A stretch of DNA of 52,212 nt, taken from contig JAJYVV010000003.1 of assembly GCA_021791815.1 (NCBI GenBank), forward strand, positions 1 through 52,212. The letters run 5' to 3'. Shown one piece after another: positions 1-50,008 of the stretch. Source of the DNA: Bacillota bacterium. Its GTDB lineage: Bacteria; Bacillota; Sulfobacillia; RBS10-35; JAJYVN01. Within the stretch, counting starts at the first letter, position 1; every line of letters starts with the position of its first letter. The notes below the pieces were generated by a model. It saw only the letters and a program-made list of their open reading frames with translations, was not told the origin of the DNA and ran no database searches. The position numbers and the translations under genes are program-made.

Positions 1-1058
1 TCCGCCGAGGCGTGGGCGCAGATGCAGGGGGCGGTGAACTCGAGCGAGCGGTCGAGGTCGATGCCCGCCGGCGCGCCGTCGCGCACGGCCGCCAGGAACT
101 GCGCGAGGGCGAGATGATCGCGGGAGGGGTGACCGCCGGCGGCCCAGGGCGCCGCCGGGCCGTGGGGGCGGGGCAGGTCGCTTCCGAGGGGTATGCGCAT
201 CAGGCCGCGGGCGTGCGGCACGGCCTCGAGGTAGGCACGGCAGGATTCGGGGTGGCCCGCCTCGACCTCGCGCTCGGTCTCCACGAAGCCCCGGGTGCCG
301 TAGACGGAGTAGTAGCAGGACTTCGGCTCGCGGGCGACCGCGAAGCCGCAGAGCACCTTCAGGACGCCCCCGCCGGCCAACTGGAACAGACCCACCTCGA
401 TGTCCGGCACCGGGGCCGCCGGGTCGATCCGCGGGCCCGTCCCCAGCGCCGTGGCGCGCACGCAGCGGTCCCCGAACACGTGGAGCAAGGGGCCGAGGGC
501 GTGCGTACCATACTGCATCGGCGGGAACGCGCCGCGCCACGCCCGCGTCCCGTCCGGGGCCGTGAACTGCCACCGCAGGTCGTGGACATACTCCCCTTCG
601 CCGTACACGGGGGAGCCGAGGAGGCCGCCGTCCACCATGGCCCGCCATGACTCGATGAAGGCGAAGTAGCGGTAGTTCTCCAGCATGCTGTACACGCGGC
701 CGGAGGCCCGCGCGGCCTGCGCCAACGCCGCGCACTCCTCCAGCGTGCAGGCCGCCGGGACCTCGCAGCCGACATGCTTGCCCGCCCGCAGCGCGGCGAT
801 GGCGTGGCGGGCGTGGAGCGGCGCGGGCGTGGCCACGACCACCGCGTCGACCGGCGCCTCGAGGAAGTCGTCCAGGGCGGTGAAGGCGCGGGGCACATCG
901 AATTCCCGGCGCGCGCGTTCGAGCGCCGCGGCGTCGAGGTCGCAGATGGCCTCCACCCGCGTCTCGGGGAACGCCCGCAGCTGGCGCAGCAGGCTGGTGC
1001 CCCGGCGCGAACTGGAGGCATCGGGGCGTCCCACGCCGAGGATGCCGACGCGCACCAC
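1..1058 (-). CDS. Gfo/Idh/MocA family oxidoreductase, 3' end beyond window
   Basis: Probable NAD(P)-dependent dehydrogenase of a sugar or cyclitol. The frame is absent from the ORF track because it runs off the left edge. Reading the minus strand from GTG 1058 gives a Rossmann start (VRVGILGVG), a strand ending EAICDLD, then the family signature region and a substrate-domain segment (GEGEYVHDLRW). A purine-rich stretch, GGGGGGTGG, lies just upstream; GTG 1055 is an equal alternative start. The motif that is normally EKP reads CEVPAA, so the usual lysine is a valine. I recall a subfamily with EVP, so this need not mean loss of activity. The C-terminus is missing from the window. The family is certain; the substrate is unknown. 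Confidence 0.85.
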   Translation of the reverse strand, partial: MVRVGILGVGRPDASSSRRGTSLLRQLRAFPETRVEAICDLDAAALERARREFDVPRAFTALDDFLEAPVDAVVVATPAPLHARHAIAALRAGKHVGCEVPAACTLEECAALAQAARASGRVYSMLENYRYFAFIESWRAMVDGGLLGSPVYGEGEYVHDLRWQFTAPDGTRAWRGAFPPMQYGTHALGPLLHVFGDRCVRATALGTGPRIDPAAPVPDIEVGLFQLAGGGVLKVLCGFAVAREPKSCYYSVYGTRGFVETEREVEAGHPESCRAYLEAVPHARGLMRIPLGSDLPRPHGPAAPWAAGGHPSRDHLALAQFLAAVRDGAPAGIDLDRSLEFTAPCICAHASA

Positions 1059-1261
1059 CGGTACCACCCCCCGGGCGAGCCCGAGCGCCGCGGGCCAGGG
1101 TGCGGCGGTGCCGGCTTCTGGATCCCGCCGCCGCTGCCCTGCGGGCGCACGCCCGGGGCTTCGGGCGCCGCGCGGGCGGCGATTCCGACCGCCGCCAACC
1201 GCCGCCGGGCGGGCCGGGTGTACGGGGGGCGGACCTTCGCCCGCCGAGGAGGGATGTCCCC

Positions 1262-2215
1262 GTGCACCCGGCCGGCCGGCCCGCCCCCGCCGCGCCGAGC
1301 TTTGCCGCCGTCCTGGACCCCCTGCTGCCTCGGGCCCTGCGGGCGGCGCGCGCCTTCCTCGGCCCCGGCCCGGCGGGCGGCATGGCCGAGGACGCGGTCC
1401 AGGAGGCGTTGCTGCGGGCGTTCCGCGCCTGGCCCGCGCTCCCGGACAAGGAACGCGACGTATGGCCTTGGCTCTGCACGATCGTGCTCCGCGAATGCCG
1501 GCGCCTGGCCGGGCGCGAGCGCGAGCGGACCGAGCGGCTCGTTCCGCTCCCGCCCGGCGACGGGCTGGACGACGGCCGTCCGGGGGCGCCCGCCGGCCCC
1601 CTCGAAGCCGTCATCGCCGGCGAGGACCGCGCGGAGGCCGTCCGCGCGCTCGGGGCGCTCCGGGGCGGCCTCCGGACGGCCGCCGAGCTGCGGTATGTCC
1701 ACGGCCTCTCGTGCGCGGACGCGGCGGCGGTGCTCGGCGTCCCGGTCGGCACGCTGAAGTGGAGGATGCATGCAGCGCACGCGCGCCTGCGGGCCGCCCT
1801 CGTGCCGGGTGAGGAGGCCGGCCGCTTCCGCCCGGGATGGGAGGCCCCTCCCGAAGCCGCCCTTCCGCCGGCCGCGCCCCTGCCGCCGGTCCTGCGCGTG
1901 GCCGTGCCTGGGGCCTCCCCCGGCTGCTTCTCGGGGCAGGCCGGCGGCTGGCCGCCGGGCGCCCTTGAGGTCCCCGCCGCCGACGGGCCGGTCCACTTCG
2001 CCGCGCCGTCGCGGGTGGCCGGCCGCCACCCCGGGGCATGGGTGGCGGCCGAGCGGGCCCACCATCTCTGGTGGGAGGCCGCGGGCCGGGTCTGGCGGGC
2101 CTGCGGGCCGTCCGTCGGCGCCGTGCGGGCGGCGGCCGAGGGGCGCGCCGCGGAGGTAGGCCCTGCATGGGCGACGTCGCCGGCCCCGCACCGGGGGGGC
2201 GACGCCCGTGGATGA
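1262..2215 (+). CDS. ECF-type RNA polymerase sigma factor with long C-terminal tail
   Basis: Predicted to direct RNA polymerase to a small promoter set. I chose GTG 1262 because GAGGAGGG lies 7 bases upstream; the ORF-track start at 1100 has no such support. The 317-residue product has a region 2-like segment (MAEDAVQEALLRAFRAWPAL, WPWLCTIVLRECRRL) and a region 4 helix-turn-helix (ELRYVHGLSCADAAAVLGVPVGTLKWRMHAAHARLRAAL). After region 4 comes a tail of roughly 130 residues, rich in Pro, Ala and Trp, that I do not recognise. The stop overlaps the start of the next gene by 8 bases, so the two are translationally coupled. There is no adjacent anti-sigma gene, so the tail or the downstream protein may supply control (inference). 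Confidence 0.85.
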   Translation: MHPAGRPAPAAPSFAAVLDPLLPRALRAARAFLGPGPAGGMAEDAVQEALLRAFRAWPALPDKERDVWPWLCTIVLRECRRLAGRERERTERLVPLPPGDGLDDGRPGAPAGPLEAVIAGEDRAEAVRALGALRGGLRTAAELRYVHGLSCADAAAVLGVPVGTLKWRMHAAHARLRAALVPGEEAGRFRPGWEAPPEAALPPAAPLPPVLRVAVPGASPGCFSGQAGGWPPGALEVPAADGPVHFAAPSRVAGRHPGAWVAAERAHHLWWEAAGRVWRACGPSVGAVRAAAEGRAAEVGPAWATSPAPHRGGDARG

Positions 2216-4421
2216 GGCGCACCCCGCCTCCCGTCTCCTGGCCCGCCTGGCGGACGTCCGCGTCCTGGCCGGCCAGCACCGTATCGCCCTGTCGCCCGAC
2301 GGCGCCGCCGTCGCCTACGCGGTGCGCCGCGCCCACGGCGATCCGGAGCCGGAGAGCGGCTTCTACCCGAGCGGCGCGCCGCTCCTCGCCCGCGGCTGCA
2401 CGCTGCTCGTGACCGACAGCGCGTCGGCCGAAACCGCCTGCCCCCTGCCGGACCCGAGCGCCCGCTCCTGGCGACCCTCCTGGGCCCCGGACAGCCGCCG
2501 CCTGGCGTTCTACGCGGATGCGGGCGGAAGGGTGCGGCTGCACGTGTGGGACCGCGCCGGCGACGGCCCGCCCCGAGCCTACCCCGAGCCCGCCGTCCGC
2601 TGCCGCGGGCATGCGGCCGACCGGCCCCGCTGGAGCCCCGACGGCGCCGCCCTCTACCTGCCGCTTTGCCCGCCCGGCCTGGAGGGCGCCTTCGCGGGCG
2701 GGACCGCGGGCCCCGAGCCGCAGCCCATCGTGCTGCGCGCCGGCGCGGCGGCGGAACCCGCCCTGGAGGAGGGCCGGCGGCGGTGGGGCGCCGACGTGGG
2801 CCGGGTGGATGCCGCCACCGGCGCCGTGGAGCGCCTGACGTCGGGCCTGCCGGTGGCCGAGCCCCACCTGTCGCCCAACGGGCGCTGGCTCGCCTTCTAC
2901 ACCCTTTCGCGCGCGGAGCCGGCCGCCGGCGACGGGGCCGAGGCGTGCGACCTGTATGTCCTGCGGGCAGCCGGGGGGGAGCCCCTGCCGCTCGCGGTGG
3001 GCCTGCCCGGGTCGAGCCACCGCCGGCACCGGCCGGCGTGGGGGCCGGATGGGTCCCGCCTGGCGTTTTTGCGCGAAGGGCGTCCGTTCGTGGCCGACCT
3101 CCACGCGGCCCCTGGCCGGCCGGAGCCGTGGGGCGACCCGCCGGAAGCGGCCGACGAGCGGTATCTGGCGTGGACCCCGGACGCCGCCGCCCTGCTTGTG
3201 CGCGGGCGGAGCGGGGCGCTGTGGCGGGTTCCCGCGGCCGGGAAGCCCGTCCGGATCGCCGTTCCGGACGGGTGGGTCCCCTCGCGTCCGCTCCAGCCCG
3301 AGGCCGGGGACGCCGCGGCCTCGTGGCGCGGAGGGTTGCTGGTCCCGGCCCGGGCCGCCGACGGGGCGACGGCGCGCCTGTTCGGGCTGCCGGCTGTCGG
3401 GGCGGCGCGCGTGCTGTGGGAGGACGCGGCGGAGATCACGGCGCAGCCGTTCCATGAGACCTGGCACTGGTTCGCGGACGTGACCGCGGAAGGCGATGTC
3501 GCGGTGCACGCCCGGGAGACGGCCGCGGAGCCGGCGGACCTGTGGTGCTGGCGCTCGGGGGACGGGCGGGATGCCGGCCCGACCCCCGCGCGGCGCCTAA
3601 CGGAGCTCAACCCCGGCCTGTCGGCGCCGGGGCGGCGGGAGGTCGTGCGCTTTCGGACCCCGGGGCCGGGGGGCGAGTCCCGCGGCCTGCTGTGGCTGCC
3701 CTGTTCCGGGGAGCCGCCGTTCCCGGCCGTGGTGATCCTCCACCCGGATCTGGCGCCCTCGGCGGCGCCCTGCCGCTTCGAACCGGAGGCCGCCGCCGGT
3801 TTCGCCGCGGCGCACCTGGTCGCGCGCGGGTTGGCGGTGTGGATGCCCGACTTCTCCTGGCCGTCGGGCGACCGGGACCGCGGCGAGGCCGTGGCCTGGG
3901 ATGCGGCCGCCGCGGCGGACGCGGCGGTCGCGGCCGGGTGGCTCGACCCCGCGCGCCTGACCGTGGCCGGCTACGGTCTGGGCGGCTTCGCCGCCCTCAG
4001 CCTGCTCCTGCGCACCGACCGCTTCCGGGCCGCCGCCGTCACGGCCGCGATCGTGGACTGGAGCGCGTACTTCGGGGACCTGCAGGTGTGGCAGGGCGCG
4101 CCCGATACGTTCGCGGCCGGGCAGTGCGAGGCGGTGCTCGGGGCCGCCGGCGGTCCGTGGGCGGACCCATGGCGCTATGTGCGCGCATCGCCGCTCTACG
4201 CGTTGGACCGCCTGCGGACGCCGGTGCTGGTGATCGCCGGAGGCGAGCCGGCGCCGGGCGGCGCCGGGGCCCTGTTCGCCGGACTGCACCGCCTGGGCCG
4301 CGAGGCGGTGCTCCTGCGCTACCCGCGGGAGGTGGGGGAGGCCCCGTTCCACTGGCGCCCCGAGGCCTTCCGAGACGTGGCGCGCCGGATCGCGGAGTGG
4401 CTGGTCGCGGCGGTGGGCTGA
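2208..4421 (+). CDS. Prolyl-oligopeptidase (S9)-like protein with degenerate catalytic triad
   Basis: The 737-residue product starts at GTG 2208 inside the end of the sigma gene. Residues 1 to about 430 contain TolB/WD40-like propeller blades (IALSPDGAAVAYAV, WRPSWAPDSRRLAFYAD, WSPDGAALYL, LSPNGRWLAFY). Residues from about 465 form an alpha/beta-hydrolase domain typical of acylaminoacyl peptidases. The nucleophile elbow reads VAGYGLGGF, so the serine of GxSxGG is Gly590 (codon GGT). The acid loop, usually GEDDxRVP, reads GGEPAPGG, and the usual GHGF histidine site reads GEAPFHW. All three catalytic positions therefore look lost. It has no signal peptide, so it is probably cytoplasmic. It is likely a non-catalytic binding or regulatory protein coupled to the sigma factor (inference). 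Confidence 0.85.
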   Translation: MDEAHPASRLLARLADVRVLAGQHRIALSPDGAAVAYAVRRAHGDPEPESGFYPSGAPLLARGCTLLVTDSASAETACPLPDPSARSWRPSWAPDSRRLAFYADAGGRVRLHVWDRAGDGPPRAYPEPAVRCRGHAADRPRWSPDGAALYLPLCPPGLEGAFAGGTAGPEPQPIVLRAGAAAEPALEEGRRRWGADVGRVDAATGAVERLTSGLPVAEPHLSPNGRWLAFYTLSRAEPAAGDGAEACDLYVLRAAGGEPLPLAVGLPGSSHRRHRPAWGPDGSRLAFLREGRPFVADLHAAPGRPEPWGDPPEAADERYLAWTPDAAALLVRGRSGALWRVPAAGKPVRIAVPDGWVPSRPLQPEAGDAAASWRGGLLVPARAADGATARLFGLPAVGAARVLWEDAAEITAQPFHETWHWFADVTAEGDVAVHARETAAEPADLWCWRSGDGRDAGPTPARRLTELNPGLSAPGRREVVRFRTPGPGGESRGLLWLPCSGEPPFPAVVILHPDLAPSAAPCRFEPEAAAGFAAAHLVARGLAVWMPDFSWPSGDRDRGEAVAWDAAAAADAAVAAGWLDPARLTVAGYGLGGFAALSLLLRTDRFRAAAVTAAIVDWSAYFGDLQVWQGAPDTFAAGQCEAVLGAAGGPWADPWRYVRASPLYALDRLRTPVLVIAGGEPAPGGAGALFAGLHRLGREAVLLRYPREVGEAPFHWRPEAFRDVARRIAEWLVAAVG

Positions 4422-4428
4422 GGGCCGC

Positions 4429-4445
4429 CGGCGGCTGCTCCGCCG
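4429..4445. terminator. Small GC hairpin after the S9-like gene
   Basis: The arms CGGCGG and CCGCCG flank the loop CTGCT, 7 bases after the stop codon, between convergent genes. There is no T-run, so its role as a terminator is weakly supported. The rest of the 275-base gap up to 4696 shows nothing I recognise. Confidence 0.3.
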
Positions 4446-4696
4446 CGGATGGGCACCCGCCCCCCGCCGCGCGGCCTCCCGTCCGCGACGGCCCGCCTGC
4501 CGGCTGCCTTCGCCACGGATCTCGTCCCGCGCGCGGGACTCCATCACGACGGGGGCGCCTGGGAGCCCTACGCTTGCCGCGGCCGGCGGAGGACTGGACG
4601 CGGCTGGAGACCCGCGCCGGGCTTGCCCGGGACCCGCATCGCGGTGGGCTCCGCCCCGTTCGCCTCCGCCCGGGCCCGCGGCCGACAGCCCCGCCC

Positions 4697-7600
4697 TCAG
4701 AACGCCGCCCGCCGCCACCGCAGCGAGGTCGGGCCCCGGCGGAAGCCGGCCGCCGTCAGCGCCTCGAGCACGGCGGCCGGGGCGTCCAGGACGGGGGCGC
4801 CGTCCCATTCCGCGACCTCCACCCGCCCGCGTGGGCCGGGCAGTTGGTGCAGGGCCGCCGCCACCTCCGCCAGGGCCGCCGCCGGGAGTTCCCGCAGCGG
4901 CTTGCAGAGACGACCGTGGGCCGAGCACTGCAGGGCCGGACGGCCCGCCTGCACGACGACGAAGCTGCCCGGGCGCCGCGGCGCCTCGCGCCACACGCAG
5001 GCGGGGTCGCAGCCCCCGATCACGCGCGTGCCGCCGGGTGCGGCGCCCCCCACCTCGCGGAGGCCGTCGACGTCGGCCGGCCGCGCGAACTGCAGGCCGC
5101 CCAAGCCCCGGACGAAATGGCCGCGCAGCGCCCCGGCGCGCTCCAGCGCCGGCACACCGGCGCTCCAGGGCACGGGCGGGCCAGCGAGTTCCCATACCTC
5201 GCGCGAAACCACGCCATACCGTCCGAGCATCTGCGCGGCCCAGGCCTCCGCCTGCGGCGCAGCCGGCGGCAGGGGCCACCACCGCCCGCCCTGCGCCGGC
5301 TGCCCGGGGCTCGGTTTCGCGCGCAGGGGCTCCAGCGCGTCGTTGGAGATCGCTCCGGCGCGGGCCAGTTCCGCCAGCCGCCCGGCCAGGGCGCCGGCCT
5401 CCATGCCCGTCCGCGCCCGCAGGTCCGCGAACCATGGCGCGGAGCCCGGCGCCAGCGCGGCGGCCAGCTCGGGAGGCCCGCCGATGGCGGCCGGCGCGGC
5501 CGCGAGCGCCGGGTAGTCCTCGCGGGCGAAGAAGGCAACGGCATCGCCGCGCGCCGCCCAGAGGAACTCCCCGCGGGCGAGCAGGCGGTCGAGGTCGGCG
5601 GCGCGGAAGCCCGGGATCTTGGCCGGCAGCACCTGCTCGAGCCACACCTCCACGGGCAGGAAGCAGCCCTGCAGGCGCCCGAGGCACGCGGCCGCGTCCC
5701 CGCCGGCCTGCCGCCGCCAGACGAACTCGGCGAAGGCGTCGCGGGAGACCGGCGCGATCTCGGCGCGGGCCAGCGCGAGCGCGCGCCGCCGCACCATCCG
5801 CCGCACCGCGGGGTGGCCGTACCGCCCGCCCCCGAGGGGCACGAGACCCAGGGCCCCCAGGTCGGGGGGCTCCCAGCCGAAGCGCCGCCGGACCTCTTCG
5901 GGCGTCAGGCCGGGGACGGCCGAGGCCCAGCGGAGGACCCACGCGGTCCGGGCCTCCGGGAGGCCGGCCGCGGCGGCCGCCCAGGCCGCCACGTCCTCGG
6001 CGGCCACCAGGCGGCCGTCCGCCTCCACCACGCGCCCGGCCGCGCGCAGCTCGGCGAGCAGGCCGCGCTCGTCTTCCGCGACCTCTGCGGGCAGCACCGG
6101 GCCCACCCGCAGGAAGCGGTCGTGCAGTTCATCCGCGGACCGCGGGCGCCCCCACAGGCGCCGGCGCAGGGCGGCTTCGGCCTTCTCCAGGTATGCGCCG
6201 GCCGCCGCCTCCGCCCCGTCCTCCTCCGCCAGCCCGGCGGCGAGGTCCGCGGCGCCCGCCTCCGCGCGCGGCGCGTCCCCCGCATACAGGCCCTCGGCCT
6301 TGAAGCGGAACTCCAGCTCGGACGCGAGCGGGCTCGGCCCCGGCCTCTCCCGCACGGCGACCGCGATGCGCCGCGCGGCCACCGCTTCGAGGACCGCCCG
6401 CCAGGCCGGCACGTCGAAGGCGTCCTCCAGGCATTCGCGCAGCGTCTCCTGGACCAGCGGGAAGTCCGGATAGCGCCGCACCGCCGCCAGGAGGTCGGCG
6501 GCCCGCAGCCGCTGCAGCCAGAGCGGCGCCCGCCGCCGGCCGTCCCCCCGTTCCAGCAGGAGAGCCCGTCCCGCCACCTCCCGGAAGCGGGCGGCGAACA
6601 GGGCCGTGCGCGGCAGGTCCGCTACGAGGGCGTCCTCCAGGGCCCGCGGGCTCCAGCGCACGAGGAGGTCGGCGGGCGACCCGCCGGCCGAGCGGCCGCT
6701 CCCGTCGGGCCGCGCCGGCAGCCTCAGGAGGAACCCGTTGTCCGAGACGGCGGCGTCGGCGGCCACCCCGGCCTCCCTCAGCAGCATGGCGCGGAGGGCC
6801 AGGCTCCACGGCCGCGTCACCGCGCGTCCCAGGGGCGCGTGGAGGCACACGCGCAGATCGCCCAGCGGGTCGCGGTACCACTCGAGCACCAGCTGCTCGG
6901 GGGAGGGCAGGCACCCCGCCGCCGCCTGTTCCGCCACGAAGGAGCGCAGCGCGCGGGCCGCGCCGGCCTCCAGCCGGCAGTCCTCCGCCACGTCCGCCCA
7001 CCAGCTCCCGTCCCGGTCCGAGCCGCCCAGATGGCGCTGGGCGTCCCCCCAGAAGCGCAGGAGGGCCTCCCCGAGTTCGGCCGGGCGCCCCGGCCCGTCC
7101 CCGTGCCAGAACGGGACGCGGGGCAGGGCGCCGGCCCCGGGGGTGACCAGCACGCGGTCGTGGGTGATGGCGGCGATGCGCCAGACGGTGGTGCCCAGCA
7201 CGAACGAGTCGCCCCGGCGGCTCTCGTGGACGAACTCCTCGTCGAGCTCGCCCAGGCGTCCCCCGTCCGGCCCGTACACCCCGAACGCGCCGCGGTCGGG
7301 GATGGTCCCGACCCCCCGGATCGCGGCCCGGGACGATCCCGGCCGCGCGCGGACCGTGCGAGCCTCCCGGTCCCAGGTCGCCAGGGGCCGCGTCCCGTAC
7401 CGGCCCGACACCAGTTCCAGGACGGCCTGGAGGTCGTCCGCGCCGAGGTCGCGGTAGGGGTGGGCGCGGCGGACGAGGTCGAGAAGGGCCGCCGGCGTCC
7501 AGTCCTCCACGGCGGCCATGGACACCACATGCTGGGCCAGGACGTCCAGGGCCCCCCGGGGCACGCGCGTGGCCTCGATGCGTCCGAGCCGCATCTCCCG

Positions 7601-8824
7601 CGCGACGATCGCGGCTTCCGCGAGGTCCGGGGCCGTCCGGCAGACGATGCGTCCCGCGCTGGTGCCGCCCACCTGGTGGCCCGCGCGCCCCACCCGCTGC
7701 AGGCCGCGCGACACCGCGCCCGGGGAGCCGACGAGGATCGCGAGGTCGATGGCGCCCACGTCGATGCCCAGCTCCAGCGTCGCCGTGGCGCAGAGGGCCC
7801 GCAGTTGCCCGCCCTTGAGCGCCGCCTCCACCTGCTCCCGTGCCTCGCGGGACACCGAACCGTGGTGGGCGCGGCAGATCTCCTCGCCCGCGAGGTCGTT
7901 CAGGCGGCGGGTGAGCGACTCGGCGCGGCCGCGGTTCGGGACGAAGATCAGCGTCGTGCGGTGGGCCCGCACGTCCTCCAGGACCAGCGGCGCGATCGCG
8001 TCCCAGACGGAGTCGCCGGGGATGTCCCGGAAGTCCGGGACGGGGACCGTGACGCGCAGGTCCAGCCGCGGGGCCGAGGAGCCGGATGGCCCGGGGGCCG
8101 TGCGGTCGACGACGGTCACGTCGTGGCGGCCGCCGAGGAAGGCGGCGATGGTCTCGAGGGGCCGCTGGGTCGCCGACAGGCCCACCCGCTGGGGCGCCCC
8201 ACCGGCCGCGAGCCGCTCGAGGCGCTCCAGGGACAGGGCCAGGTGGGTGCCGCGCTTCGTTCCGGCCATGGCGTGGATCTCGTCGACGATGACCGTCTCC
8301 ACGCGGGCGAGCGCGGGCAGCGCCCGGGGCGAGGTGAGGAGGAGGAAGAGCGACTCCGGGGTGGTGATCAGGATGTCGGGCGGGGTCCGGACCTGGCGGG
8401 CGCGCGCGGAGGCGGGCGTGTCGCCCGTGCGCACGGCCACGGTGGGCATGCGCAGCGTCTCGCCGCGCCGGGCGGCCTCGGCGGCGATGCCCGCGATCGG
8501 CGCCTGCAGGTTGCGGTGCACGTCGTTGTCCAGGGCCTTCAGCGGCGAGATGTAGAGGACGCGGACGCCGGACCCGGAAGCCGGTCCGCGCGGGGCGGCC
8601 GGACGCGCCAGCCGGTCGATGGCCGTCAGGAAGGCGGCGAGGGTCTTGCCGCTCCCGGTGGGAGCGGCGAGCAGCACGTGCTCGCCCCGCGCGAGCAGGG
8701 GCCACGTGGCGGCCTGCGCGGCCGTGGGCTCGCCCAGCGCGCGGCAAAACCACCCGGCGACCGCCGGGTGGAAGCCCGCCAAGGGATCGGCCGGAGGGGC
8801 CGGCGGCGTGCTGCCACGGCGCAT
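4697..8824 (-). CDS. lhr: Lhr-type superfamily 2 DNA helicase
   Basis: ATP-dependent 3'-5' helicase of the Lhr family, implicated in DNA repair in other bacteria. The ORF track extends to 10375, but homology begins at ATG 8824 (MRRGSTPPAPP); the upstream part is a shadow of the PLP-enzyme gene. The product has 1375 residues. Visible motifs in order: Q-motif-like region around residues 18-45, Walker A APTGSGKT (54-61), TTPESL (154-159), DEIH (181-184), SAT (217-219), a second RecA domain with TATLELGIDVG, and motif VI QRVGRAGH (376-383). A winged-helix segment and a long C-terminal extension follow, as in long Lhr proteins. It has no operon partner and faces the S9-like gene. All core ATPase motifs are intact. 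Confidence 0.93.
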   Translation of the reverse strand: MRRGSTPPAPPADPLAGFHPAVAGWFCRALGEPTAAQAATWPLLARGEHVLLAAPTGSGKTLAAFLTAIDRLARPAAPRGPASGSGVRVLYISPLKALDNDVHRNLQAPIAGIAAEAARRGETLRMPTVAVRTGDTPASARARQVRTPPDILITTPESLFLLLTSPRALPALARVETVIVDEIHAMAGTKRGTHLALSLERLERLAAGGAPQRVGLSATQRPLETIAAFLGGRHDVTVVDRTAPGPSGSSAPRLDLRVTVPVPDFRDIPGDSVWDAIAPLVLEDVRAHRTTLIFVPNRGRAESLTRRLNDLAGEEICRAHHGSVSREAREQVEAALKGGQLRALCATATLELGIDVGAIDLAILVGSPGAVSRGLQRVGRAGHQVGGTSAGRIVCRTAPDLAEAAIVAREMRLGRIEATRVPRGALDVLAQHVVSMAAVEDWTPAALLDLVRRAHPYRDLGADDLQAVLELVSGRYGTRPLATWDREARTVRARPGSSRAAIRGVGTIPDRGAFGVYGPDGGRLGELDEEFVHESRRGDSFVLGTTVWRIAAITHDRVLVTPGAGALPRVPFWHGDGPGRPAELGEALLRFWGDAQRHLGGSDRDGSWWADVAEDCRLEAGAARALRSFVAEQAAAGCLPSPEQLVLEWYRDPLGDLRVCLHAPLGRAVTRPWSLALRAMLLREAGVAADAAVSDNGFLLRLPARPDGSGRSAGGSPADLLVRWSPRALEDALVADLPRTALFAARFREVAGRALLLERGDGRRRAPLWLQRLRAADLLAAVRRYPDFPLVQETLRECLEDAFDVPAWRAVLEAVAARRIAVAVRERPGPSPLASELEFRFKAEGLYAGDAPRAEAGAADLAAGLAEEDGAEAAAGAYLEKAEAALRRRLWGRPRSADELHDRFLRVGPVLPAEVAEDERGLLAELRAAGRVVEADGRLVAAEDVAAWAAAAAGLPEARTAWVLRWASAVPGLTPEEVRRRFGWEPPDLGALGLVPLGGGRYGHPAVRRMVRRRALALARAEIAPVSRDAFAEFVWRRQAGGDAAACLGRLQGCFLPVEVWLEQVLPAKIPGFRAADLDRLLARGEFLWAARGDAVAFFAREDYPALAAAPAAIGGPPELAAALAPGSAPWFADLRARTGMEAGALAGRLAELARAGAISNDALEPLRAKPSPGQPAQGGRWWPLPPAAPQAEAWAAQMLGRYGVVSREVWELAGPPVPWSAGVPALERAGALRGHFVRGLGGLQFARPADVDGLREVGGAAPGGTRVIGGCDPACVWREAPRRPGSFVVVQAGRPALQCSAHGRLCKPLRELPAAALAEVAAALHQLPGPRGRVEVAEWDGAPVLDAPAAVLEALTAAGFRRGPTSLRWRRAAF

Positions 8825-9289
8825 GGGGGCCAGTTCGCGGCGCAGACGGCGATCCCCGTTCCCAAAGGGCCCCCCGCCTTGCAGCCGGAGCGCGGCGCGT
8901 GGGTGGGCCGCCGGGGCCGCGGGCGTAGCCACGGGGTATGGGCGCGTTCCGGTGGCGCCGGCGGTCCTCGAACGGTCCGCCCCTCGCGGCTGGGGCACGT
9001 GGGCGGTGAGAGGCGCGTCCGGCGCCGCGGACAGGCGATCGGCGGTGTCCCCGGCCGCCCGCCGTCTGGGAGCGGGGCGCCGATCGGACAGGGGTGGGCG
9101 CTCCGGGCCCTCCCGGAGACGCCGGACGGCCCCGACCGGTTGCCGCGCCGGCCATCCGCTGGCCGTGCGAGGGGGACCCTCCCGGACCCGGGTCGAAGCA
9201 CCCCCGCCGCCGGGGCGGGCTCGCCGGCCCCTTCCGAGCCCGCCCGACCTCCTGGCCCGCCCCGGCCGTATCCCCTGGGAGGTGCCGCC
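8825..9289. other. Divergent intergenic region between helicase and PLP-enzyme genes
   Basis: This 465-base stretch must hold the promoters for both flanking genes. I find no convincing ORF or RNA. The one clear structure is the inverted repeat listed at 9213-9245. Confidence 0.5.
9213..9245. promoter_or_regulatory. 11-bp perfect inverted repeat upstream of the PLP-enzyme gene
   Basis: GGGCGGGCTCG and CGAGCCCGCCC are separated by 11 bases and end 44 bases before the GTG start at 9290. It could be a regulator site or a leader hairpin; the sequence does not decide between them. Confidence 0.4.
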
Positions 9290-48860: not shown

Positions 48861-49538
48861 GTGGCCACCGCTGCCGGTGCCCGGTCGGGCCGCGCGGCCT
48901 CGTTCCGGGACCTCCCCACGCCCCTGCCCGAGGCGCCGGCCGCGGCTTCAGGGGCTCCCCGTCGGCCGCCGGCCGCGCGGCCCGCGCCCCGGCCCCTGCC
49001 CGACGAAGACCTGATGTCCGCCTTCGCCACGGGCGACCTGGAGGCGTTCGGGGAGTTGGTCGCCCGCCACCGCGCCGCCGTGATCGGCTTCTGCCGGCGG
49101 CTCCTCGGGGATCCCCACGAGGCCGAGGACGCCGCGCAGGACGCCTTCGTCGCCCTGTACCGCTGCGGTCCCCGCTACGTCCCCTCCGCCCCGTTCCGCG
49201 CCCTGCTCTACCGCCTGGCCCGCAACGCCTGCGCCGACGCCCGCCGGCGACCGGCCCCGCTGCCCGGCCCAGACCTTCCCGAGACACAGGACCCGGACCC
49301 GGGCGCGCCGGAGGCGGCCGAGCGGCGGCTGCGGGCGGCGGAGCTCCGCCGGGCCGTGGCGCGCCTGACCCCTCTGCAGCGGGAGGCGGTGGTCCTTACG
49401 CACTTCGAGGGCCTGACGTACACCGAGGCGGCCGCCGTGCTGCGGGTGCCGGTGGGGACCGTGTGCTCTCGGGCGGCGGCGGCCTTGGCGGCCCTGCGCC
49501 GCCTGCTGCCGGTGCCGGGGGAGGAGGGCGGCAGGTGA
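48861..49538 (+). CDS. ECF-type RNA polymerase sigma factor
   Basis: The 225-residue product starts at GTG 48861 with GGAGGGG at about 6 bases. After a Pro/Ala-rich leader of about 45 residues comes region 2 (LMSAFATGDLEAFGELVARHRAAVIGFCRRLLGDPHEAEDAAQDAFVALYR, FRALLYRLARNACADARR). Region 4 follows (LRRAVARLTPLQREAVVLTHFEGLTYTEAAAVLRVPVGTVCSRAAAALAALRRLL). Its stop overlaps the next start (GTGA), the classic arrangement of sigma with cognate anti-sigma factor. Confidence 0.93.
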   Translation: MATAAGARSGRAASFRDLPTPLPEAPAAASGAPRRPPAARPAPRPLPDEDLMSAFATGDLEAFGELVARHRAAVIGFCRRLLGDPHEAEDAAQDAFVALYRCGPRYVPSAPFRALLYRLARNACADARRRPAPLPGPDLPETQDPDPGAPEAAERRLRAAELRRAVARLTPLQREAVVLTHFEGLTYTEAAAVLRVPVGTVCSRAAAALAALRRLLPVPGEEGGR

Positions 49539-50008
49539 CGCAGCCGTGCGCGGACGCCATGGACGCGATCGCGGCGGTGGCCCGCGGCCGGGCGCCGGAC
49601 GTCGGGCCGGGGGTCCGCGCCCACCTTGCGGGATGTCCGAGGTGCCGGGGGGCCTACGCCCACGCCGCCGCGTGTGCGCCGTGGCTCGCGGCCGGCATCG
49701 TGGACGACGCCGGCGGCGCGGCCCACCGGGAGGCCTCCTCCGCCTGGGAGCGGCGGCTGTTCCTCCGCCTCCTGGCCGAGGAGAGGGCGTCGGGCACGCC
49801 CGGGCCCCGCCCGGGCCCCGACGCCCGGGGCCGCCGCGCGGTGGGGCCCGCGCGCCACGGGCCGGCTCGCGGCGATTCCGGCCCGAGACCGCGCAGCCCG
49901 GCATGGGCGCGCCTGGCCGCGTGGCTCGGCGGCTGGGAGACTGGACCCGAGGAAGGGGAGTGGCGGCGGTGGCGGCGGCGGCCGGAGGCGGACGCAAGCC
50001 CACGATGA
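49535..50008 (+). CDS. Zinc-type (ZAS) anti-sigma factor, apparently soluble
   Basis: Predicted to sequester the upstream sigma factor, 157 residues. GTG 49535 overlaps the sigma stop by 4 bases and has GGAGGAGGG upstream. The anti-sigma zinc motif HxxxCxxC is present as HLAGCPRC (His30, Cys34, Cys37). A helix (REASSAWERRLFLRLLAEERA) and a low-complexity Pro/Gly/Arg linker follow. No membrane helix is visible, so it probably senses a cytoplasmic signal, possibly redox through the zinc cysteines (inference). It overlaps the next gene by 4 bases (ATGA). Confidence 0.85.
   Translation: MTQPCADAMDAIAAVARGRAPDVGPGVRAHLAGCPRCRGAYAHAAACAPWLAAGIVDDAGGAAHREASSAWERRLFLRLLAEERASGTPGPRPGPDARGRRAVGPARHGPARGDSGPRPRSPAWARLAAWLGGWETGPEEGEWRRWRRRPEADASPR

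Follow-up and report, generated by a model that had tools for sequence, protein, structure and literature searches.

A prolyl-oligopeptidase-like protein with a lost catalytic site, encoded in overlap with an extended ECF sigma factor in a lineage of Sulfobacillia

The cognate anti-sigma gene is commonly, though not universally, adjacent to the gene for its ECF sigma factor. In sigma/anti-sigma operons of this kind the regulator lies directly downstream and the gene ends overlap. Class I anti-sigma factors are marked by an anti-sigma domain, a transmembrane segment or both. Control can also be built into the sigma factor itself, as C-terminal extensions can regulate ECF sigma factors in cis, an example being ECF41 (PMC3426412; reviewed in PMC8103513). 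In the extended groups ECF41, ECF42, ECF56 and ECF238, regions 2 and 4 are followed by a conserved extension with a possible cis-regulating role.

The S9 peptidases of the acylaminoacyl-peptidase/prolyl-oligopeptidase type combine a beta-propeller (PD40) with an alpha/beta-hydrolase domain (PF00326), and 8wt1 is a solved example. Inactive S9B proteins are found in animals as DPP6 and DPP10. In DPP10, a membrane protein and Kv4 channel subunit, the nucleophile serine is replaced by Gly651 (motif GKGYGG), and the pseudo-peptidase works as a binding subunit (PMC4350108). A literature search that covered sources other than the group list of the main ECF classification turned up no ECF sigma factor whose described partner is a prolyl oligopeptidase-like protein.

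Such a pair lies near the start of a 52,212-nt stretch of DNA, here called the window, from a Bacillota bacterium (GTDB lineage Bacteria; Bacillota; Sulfobacillia; RBS10-35; JAJYVN01; assembly GCA_021791815.1, contig JAJYVV010000003.1, positions 1 to 52,212, forward strand). The source genome (G000) is a draft, 87% complete, and among the genomes searched is the only one with an intact copy of the pair. The two genes and the parts of their products are as follows.

1247..1253, plus strand: AGGAGGG, likely ribosome-binding site for the sigma gene, read directly from the sequence
1262..2215, plus strand: ECF sigma factor gene (P0001, 317 aa), GTG start at 1262, TGA stop at 2213-2215; identified by Pfam and TIGR02937
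1322..1519, plus strand: sigma region 2, residues 21-86 (Pfam PF04542)
1637..1783, plus strand: sigma region 4, residues 126-174 (Pfam PF08281)
1811..2212, plus strand: C-terminal extension of the sigma factor, residues 184-317 (about 134 residues), with the motif HHLWW....VWRACG; no Pfam family
2208..2215, plus strand: 8-nt overlap of the sigma and S9 reading frames, from the ORF coordinates
2208..4421, plus strand: dead S9 (prolyl-oligopeptidase-like) gene (P0002, 737 aa), GTG start at 2208, stop at 4419-4421; identified by Pfam and hhalign
2208..3587, plus strand: beta-propeller part, about residues 1-460, from PD40 and alignment; boundary approximate
3588..4418, plus strand: alpha/beta-hydrolase part, about residues 461-737, from the Peptidase_S9 match and alignment

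The reading frames and Pfam matches bear out an initial annotation made from the sequence, which had described an 8-base overlap between the sigma gene and a 737-residue propeller/hydrolase protein. Upstream of the pair a Gfo/Idh/MocA oxidoreductase gene points away from it (3-1067, minus strand), and downstream an Lhr-type helicase gene points towards it (4697-9055, minus strand). Most likely the sigma and S9 genes form a two-gene operon standing alone between these neighbours, with translation of the S9 gene coupled to that of the sigma gene. Scans for sigma-70 promoters and terminators gave no match.

The sigma factor matches Sigma70_r2 (38.6 bits) and Sigma70_r4_2 (26.9 bits), both over the cut-off, as well as the ECF superfamily model TIGR02937 (43.9 bits against a cut-off of 42.9). 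Hydropathy indicates neither a signal peptide nor a transmembrane stretch. In the S9 protein, PD40 is matched at 52.8 bits and Peptidase_S9 (PF00326) at 45.3 bits over residues 553-699 (cut-off 22.6). When P0002 and its paralogue were compared by hhalign, as a profile, against 12 intact S9 proteins, the match ran end to end over 615 columns (probability 100, E 2.8e-53). P0002 likewise lacks a signal peptide or transmembrane segment, with a maximum 19-residue hydropathy of 1.38 and an N-terminal value of 0.79, and is predicted to be cytoplasmic. Single-sequence structure predictions were unusable for both proteins (pLDDT 45 for the sigma factor and 33 for P0002).

The S9 fold is thus shared with the acylaminoacyl-peptidase/prolyl-oligopeptidase type, and it is at the catalytic site that P0002 differs, where neither any residue of the Ser-Asp-His triad nor HGGP survives. 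P0002 was aligned with 28 relatives, of which one is a paralogue encoded in its own genome and the other 27 are S9 proteins encoded by genomes of the class. These 27 are invariant at the nucleophile Ser, at the catalytic Asp and His, and in the HGG of the HGGP motif. The corresponding positions in P0002 are these.

3741..3752, plus strand: HPDL (residues 512-515) instead of HGGP (alignment; HGG in 27/27)
3975..3977, plus strand: Gly590 instead of the nucleophile Ser, elbow AGYGLGG (alignment; Ser in 27/27)
4248..4250, plus strand: Pro681 instead of the catalytic Asp, in the shortened loop AGGEPAPGG (alignment; Asp in 27/27)
4335..4337, plus strand: Gly710 instead of the catalytic His, site RYPREVGEAPF (alignment; His in 27/27)

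The loss of all three catalytic residues reported by the initial annotation therefore stands against the 27 intact relatives and extends to the HGGP motif; the GHGF site it had named corresponds to an S[HF]H[EG]-like histidine site in the relatives, which P0002 has lost. With nucleophile, acid, base and HGGP gone, serine peptidase activity is excluded for P0002. Conceivably the active site was rebuilt for a non-serine chemistry that uses one or more of His512, Asp514, Glu680 and His715, which in the sequence are close to the former site. This is very improbable, because the elbow offers no nucleophile, the Tyr that follows the nucleophile is replaced by Leu (position 591), the NPRGS loop has been lost too, and no family with such a chemistry matches P0002.

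Compared with DPP10, P0002 has the same propeller/hydrolase fold and the same replacement of the nucleophile by Gly. His and Asp are still present in DPP10, a membrane protein (PMC4350108), whereas P0002 has lost the whole triad and is predicted to be cytoplasmic. The likeness is one of analogy and not of close kinship.

The nearest relative of P0002 is a paralogue in its own genome, P0004 (G000:C257:45325-47517), which is 41% identical over the full length. In P0004 the Ser (GQSYGG) and His of the triad are present and so, probably, is the Asp, for which an Asp aligned with the acid column beside an insertion is the candidate; the His of HGGP has been lost. Loss of the triad thus appears specific to the window copy and to have followed the split of the two copies. 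On these residues P0004 is likely an active peptidase. It is not beside a sigma gene. It lies directly upstream of genes for a proline dehydrogenase and an aldehyde dehydrogenase, likely a P5C dehydrogenase (G000:C257, L033:3-4587, minus strand), an arrangement that suggests a cluster for prolyl-peptide utilisation and hints at prolyl peptides as the ancestral substrates. No homologue in the sigma-S9 arrangement keeps an intact triad beside the sigma gene.

Among other genomes, a second copy of the pair was found in another genus of the same family (genome G002, contig C346), with the same gene order and a 14-nt overlap. There the sigma gene has lost region 2 through an internal deletion, and what is left of the S9 gene encodes residues 10-47 and 192-318, each in its own frame, and then runs into unrelated sequence, with no hydrolase domain. 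As read from their sequences, both genes of this relic are pseudogenes. No other close relatives were found in 154 genomes of the class or 399 of the phylum, by tblastn of plasmids, or in two pattern scans of the GTDB contig collection (84,980 species), which see only close relatives. In the material searched, the pair is confined to one small family and is already broken in the one other genus. Conservation of the gene pair, which had been put forward as a check, therefore holds to a minimal degree: order and overlap recur once, in a copy where both genes are pseudogenes and the catalytic domain is missing. The joint decay of the two genes at one locus fits a joint function, weakly, as it is a single event. 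Since the only other copy is a pseudogene pair, the system is dispensable. Elsewhere in G002 (C64, L035:4272-5519, minus strand) there is a propeller-only relative of P0002 of about 415 aa that lacks the hydrolase domain and is either truncated or propeller-only by nature.

The wrecked copy in the sister genus raises the question of whether the window's S9 gene is itself drifting, its peptidase function lost and its open frame that of a recent pseudogene that has yet to collect stops. Stops accumulate slowly in G+C-rich DNA, and antisense ORFs of 600-780 aa are present in this G+C-rich stretch, so a 737-codon open frame is by itself weak evidence. The frame is nonetheless truly coding, given the G+C content by codon position (0.81/0.63/0.93) and the end-to-end alignment with intact S9 peptidases. 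Several further features speak against drift. The codon-position signature is intact and nearly equal in propeller and hydrolase; three separate catalytic replacements have occurred with no frame-breaking indel; and divergence from the paralogue is no greater in the hydrolase than in the propeller (40% and 42% identity, respectively). Of 69 conserved columns in the hydrolase part P0002 retains 41, an approximate count since part of 538-546 is misaligned.

Selection could be estimated between the window and the G002 relic over the segments left in the relic, that is, the S9 propeller and the region 4 and extension of the sigma factor, with the hydrolase domain outside this comparison. The dN/dS values were 0.26 for the S9 propeller segments (95% 0.15-0.38), 0.20 for sigma region 4 (95% 0.07-0.40) and 0.30 for the sigma extension (95% 0.15-0.52), which indicates purifying selection on all three. 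Such selection lasted for most of the time since the two genera parted, and the G002 copy died later. For the hydrolase domain after the loss of its triad, the one indication of selection is the even divergence from the paralogue, a comparison in which synonymous sites are near saturation. Taken together, a retained fold rather than plain decay is supported for P0002 at the level of sequence, and a drifting gene is improbable. The initial annotation's reading of selection rather than decay is upheld by the kept fold, the 41 columns, the even identity to the paralogue and the low propeller dN/dS.

The C-terminal extension of the sigma factor bears on how the pair may work. Like ECF41, ECF42, ECF56 and ECF238, P0001 carries a conserved extension behind regions 2 and 4. 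Unlike theirs, its extension matches no Pfam family, with no hit for residues 184-317 to the SnoaL_2 domain of ECF41/ECF56-type extended ECFs, and its partner gene encodes a dead peptidase. A second ECF sigma factor in G002 (C99, L050:2810-3871) has a 190-residue extension with a motif (G.W......H.LWW....WR..G) similar to that of the window sigma. It stands alone, with neither an S9 partner nor an adjoining regulator gene, which suggests that an extension of this kind may regulate by itself. DUF4367 was considered as an identity for the extension owing to its C-terminal pattern and because one neighbouring anti-sigma protein has a tail that resembles DUF4367. For the window and relic sequences together the hhalign comparison was not significant (E 0.47); the C99 sigma alone shows a weak resemblance (E 0.018).

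These observations leave room for a binding or scaffold role in which the S9 protein serves the response governed by the sigma factor and never touches the sigma factor, which would be regulated by its own extension or through its transcription. The conservation of the extension, the capacity of ECF extensions to act in cis (PMC3426412, PMC8103513) and the solitary C99 sigma all fit this reading. The overlap of the two frames and their joint decay in G002 suggest, weakly and from one event, something more than co-transcription. We regard such a role as somewhat unlikely.

We tentatively favour, at a little short of an even chance, a lineage-restricted and catalytically dead S9 binding protein that is coupled to the ECF sigma factor and that, on binding a ligand, holds or releases either the sigma factor or a protein under the sigma factor's control. 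In this scheme the first gene would encode a cytoplasmic ECF sigma factor that is intact and bears a C-terminal extension peculiar to its lineage, and the second, translationally coupled gene a cytoplasmic propeller/hydrolase protein that is no serine peptidase. This second protein would act by binding, and its synthesis would keep pace with that of the sigma factor. Its ligand may be a peptide or a small molecule, possibly proline-related given that the nearest paralogue heads a proline-degradation cluster. Some such ligand-dependent role appears likeliest because the S9 gene occupies the directly downstream slot usual for an anti-sigma gene.

From this gene order we infer that the S9 protein may regulate the sigma factor; the new type of sigma partner, sensing peptides or a ligand, that the initial annotation suggested is possible. 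The layout is that of ECF sigma/anti-sigma operons, a regulator directly downstream with overlapping ends. The features of class I anti-sigma factors are absent from P0002, in which Pfam finds no anti-sigma or zinc-binding domain and hydropathy no transmembrane segment. A narrower form of the idea, in which the dead S9 protein is a direct, non-proteolytic regulator that replaces the anti-sigma factor and responds to a ligand inside the cell, for instance a prolyl peptide, seems to us rather unlikely.

Elsewhere in the class, some ECF sigma genes are directly followed by a putative anti-sigma gene. In the window itself, the second ECF sigma gene (49014-49538) shares 4 nt with the next gene, which encodes a CxxC (anti-sigma-like) protein; the arrangement of this pair (49014-50008) is conventional. 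In G054 (C21, L053:5326-6628, minus strand) an ECF sigma gene is followed by one for an M23 (LytM-type) peptidase-domain protein in the anti-sigma place. A general association between ECF sigma factors and S9 proteins was considered and, judged from the neighbours of S9 genes, rejected, as a sigma-like ORF was present at only one other S9 locus and was divergent from an intact S9 gene. At that locus (G000:C199, L036) the genes for the ECF sigma factor P0006 (1263-2345, minus strand) and the S9 protein (2832-5087, plus strand) are about 490 bp apart. P0006 has a long C-terminal extension that differs from that of P0001 and belongs to no Pfam family.

The reach of the finding is limited, as the pair occurs in a single family and one of the two genera that had it has lost it. 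The change of function should be traceable, since intact S9 genes abound in the class and the genome itself contains a paralogue that is likely active. Should control of the sigma factor by the dead S9 protein prove real, ECF regulators would gain a new class and DPP6 and DPP10 a counterpart in bacteria, and it would mean that the S9 fold can turn from cutting to sensing.
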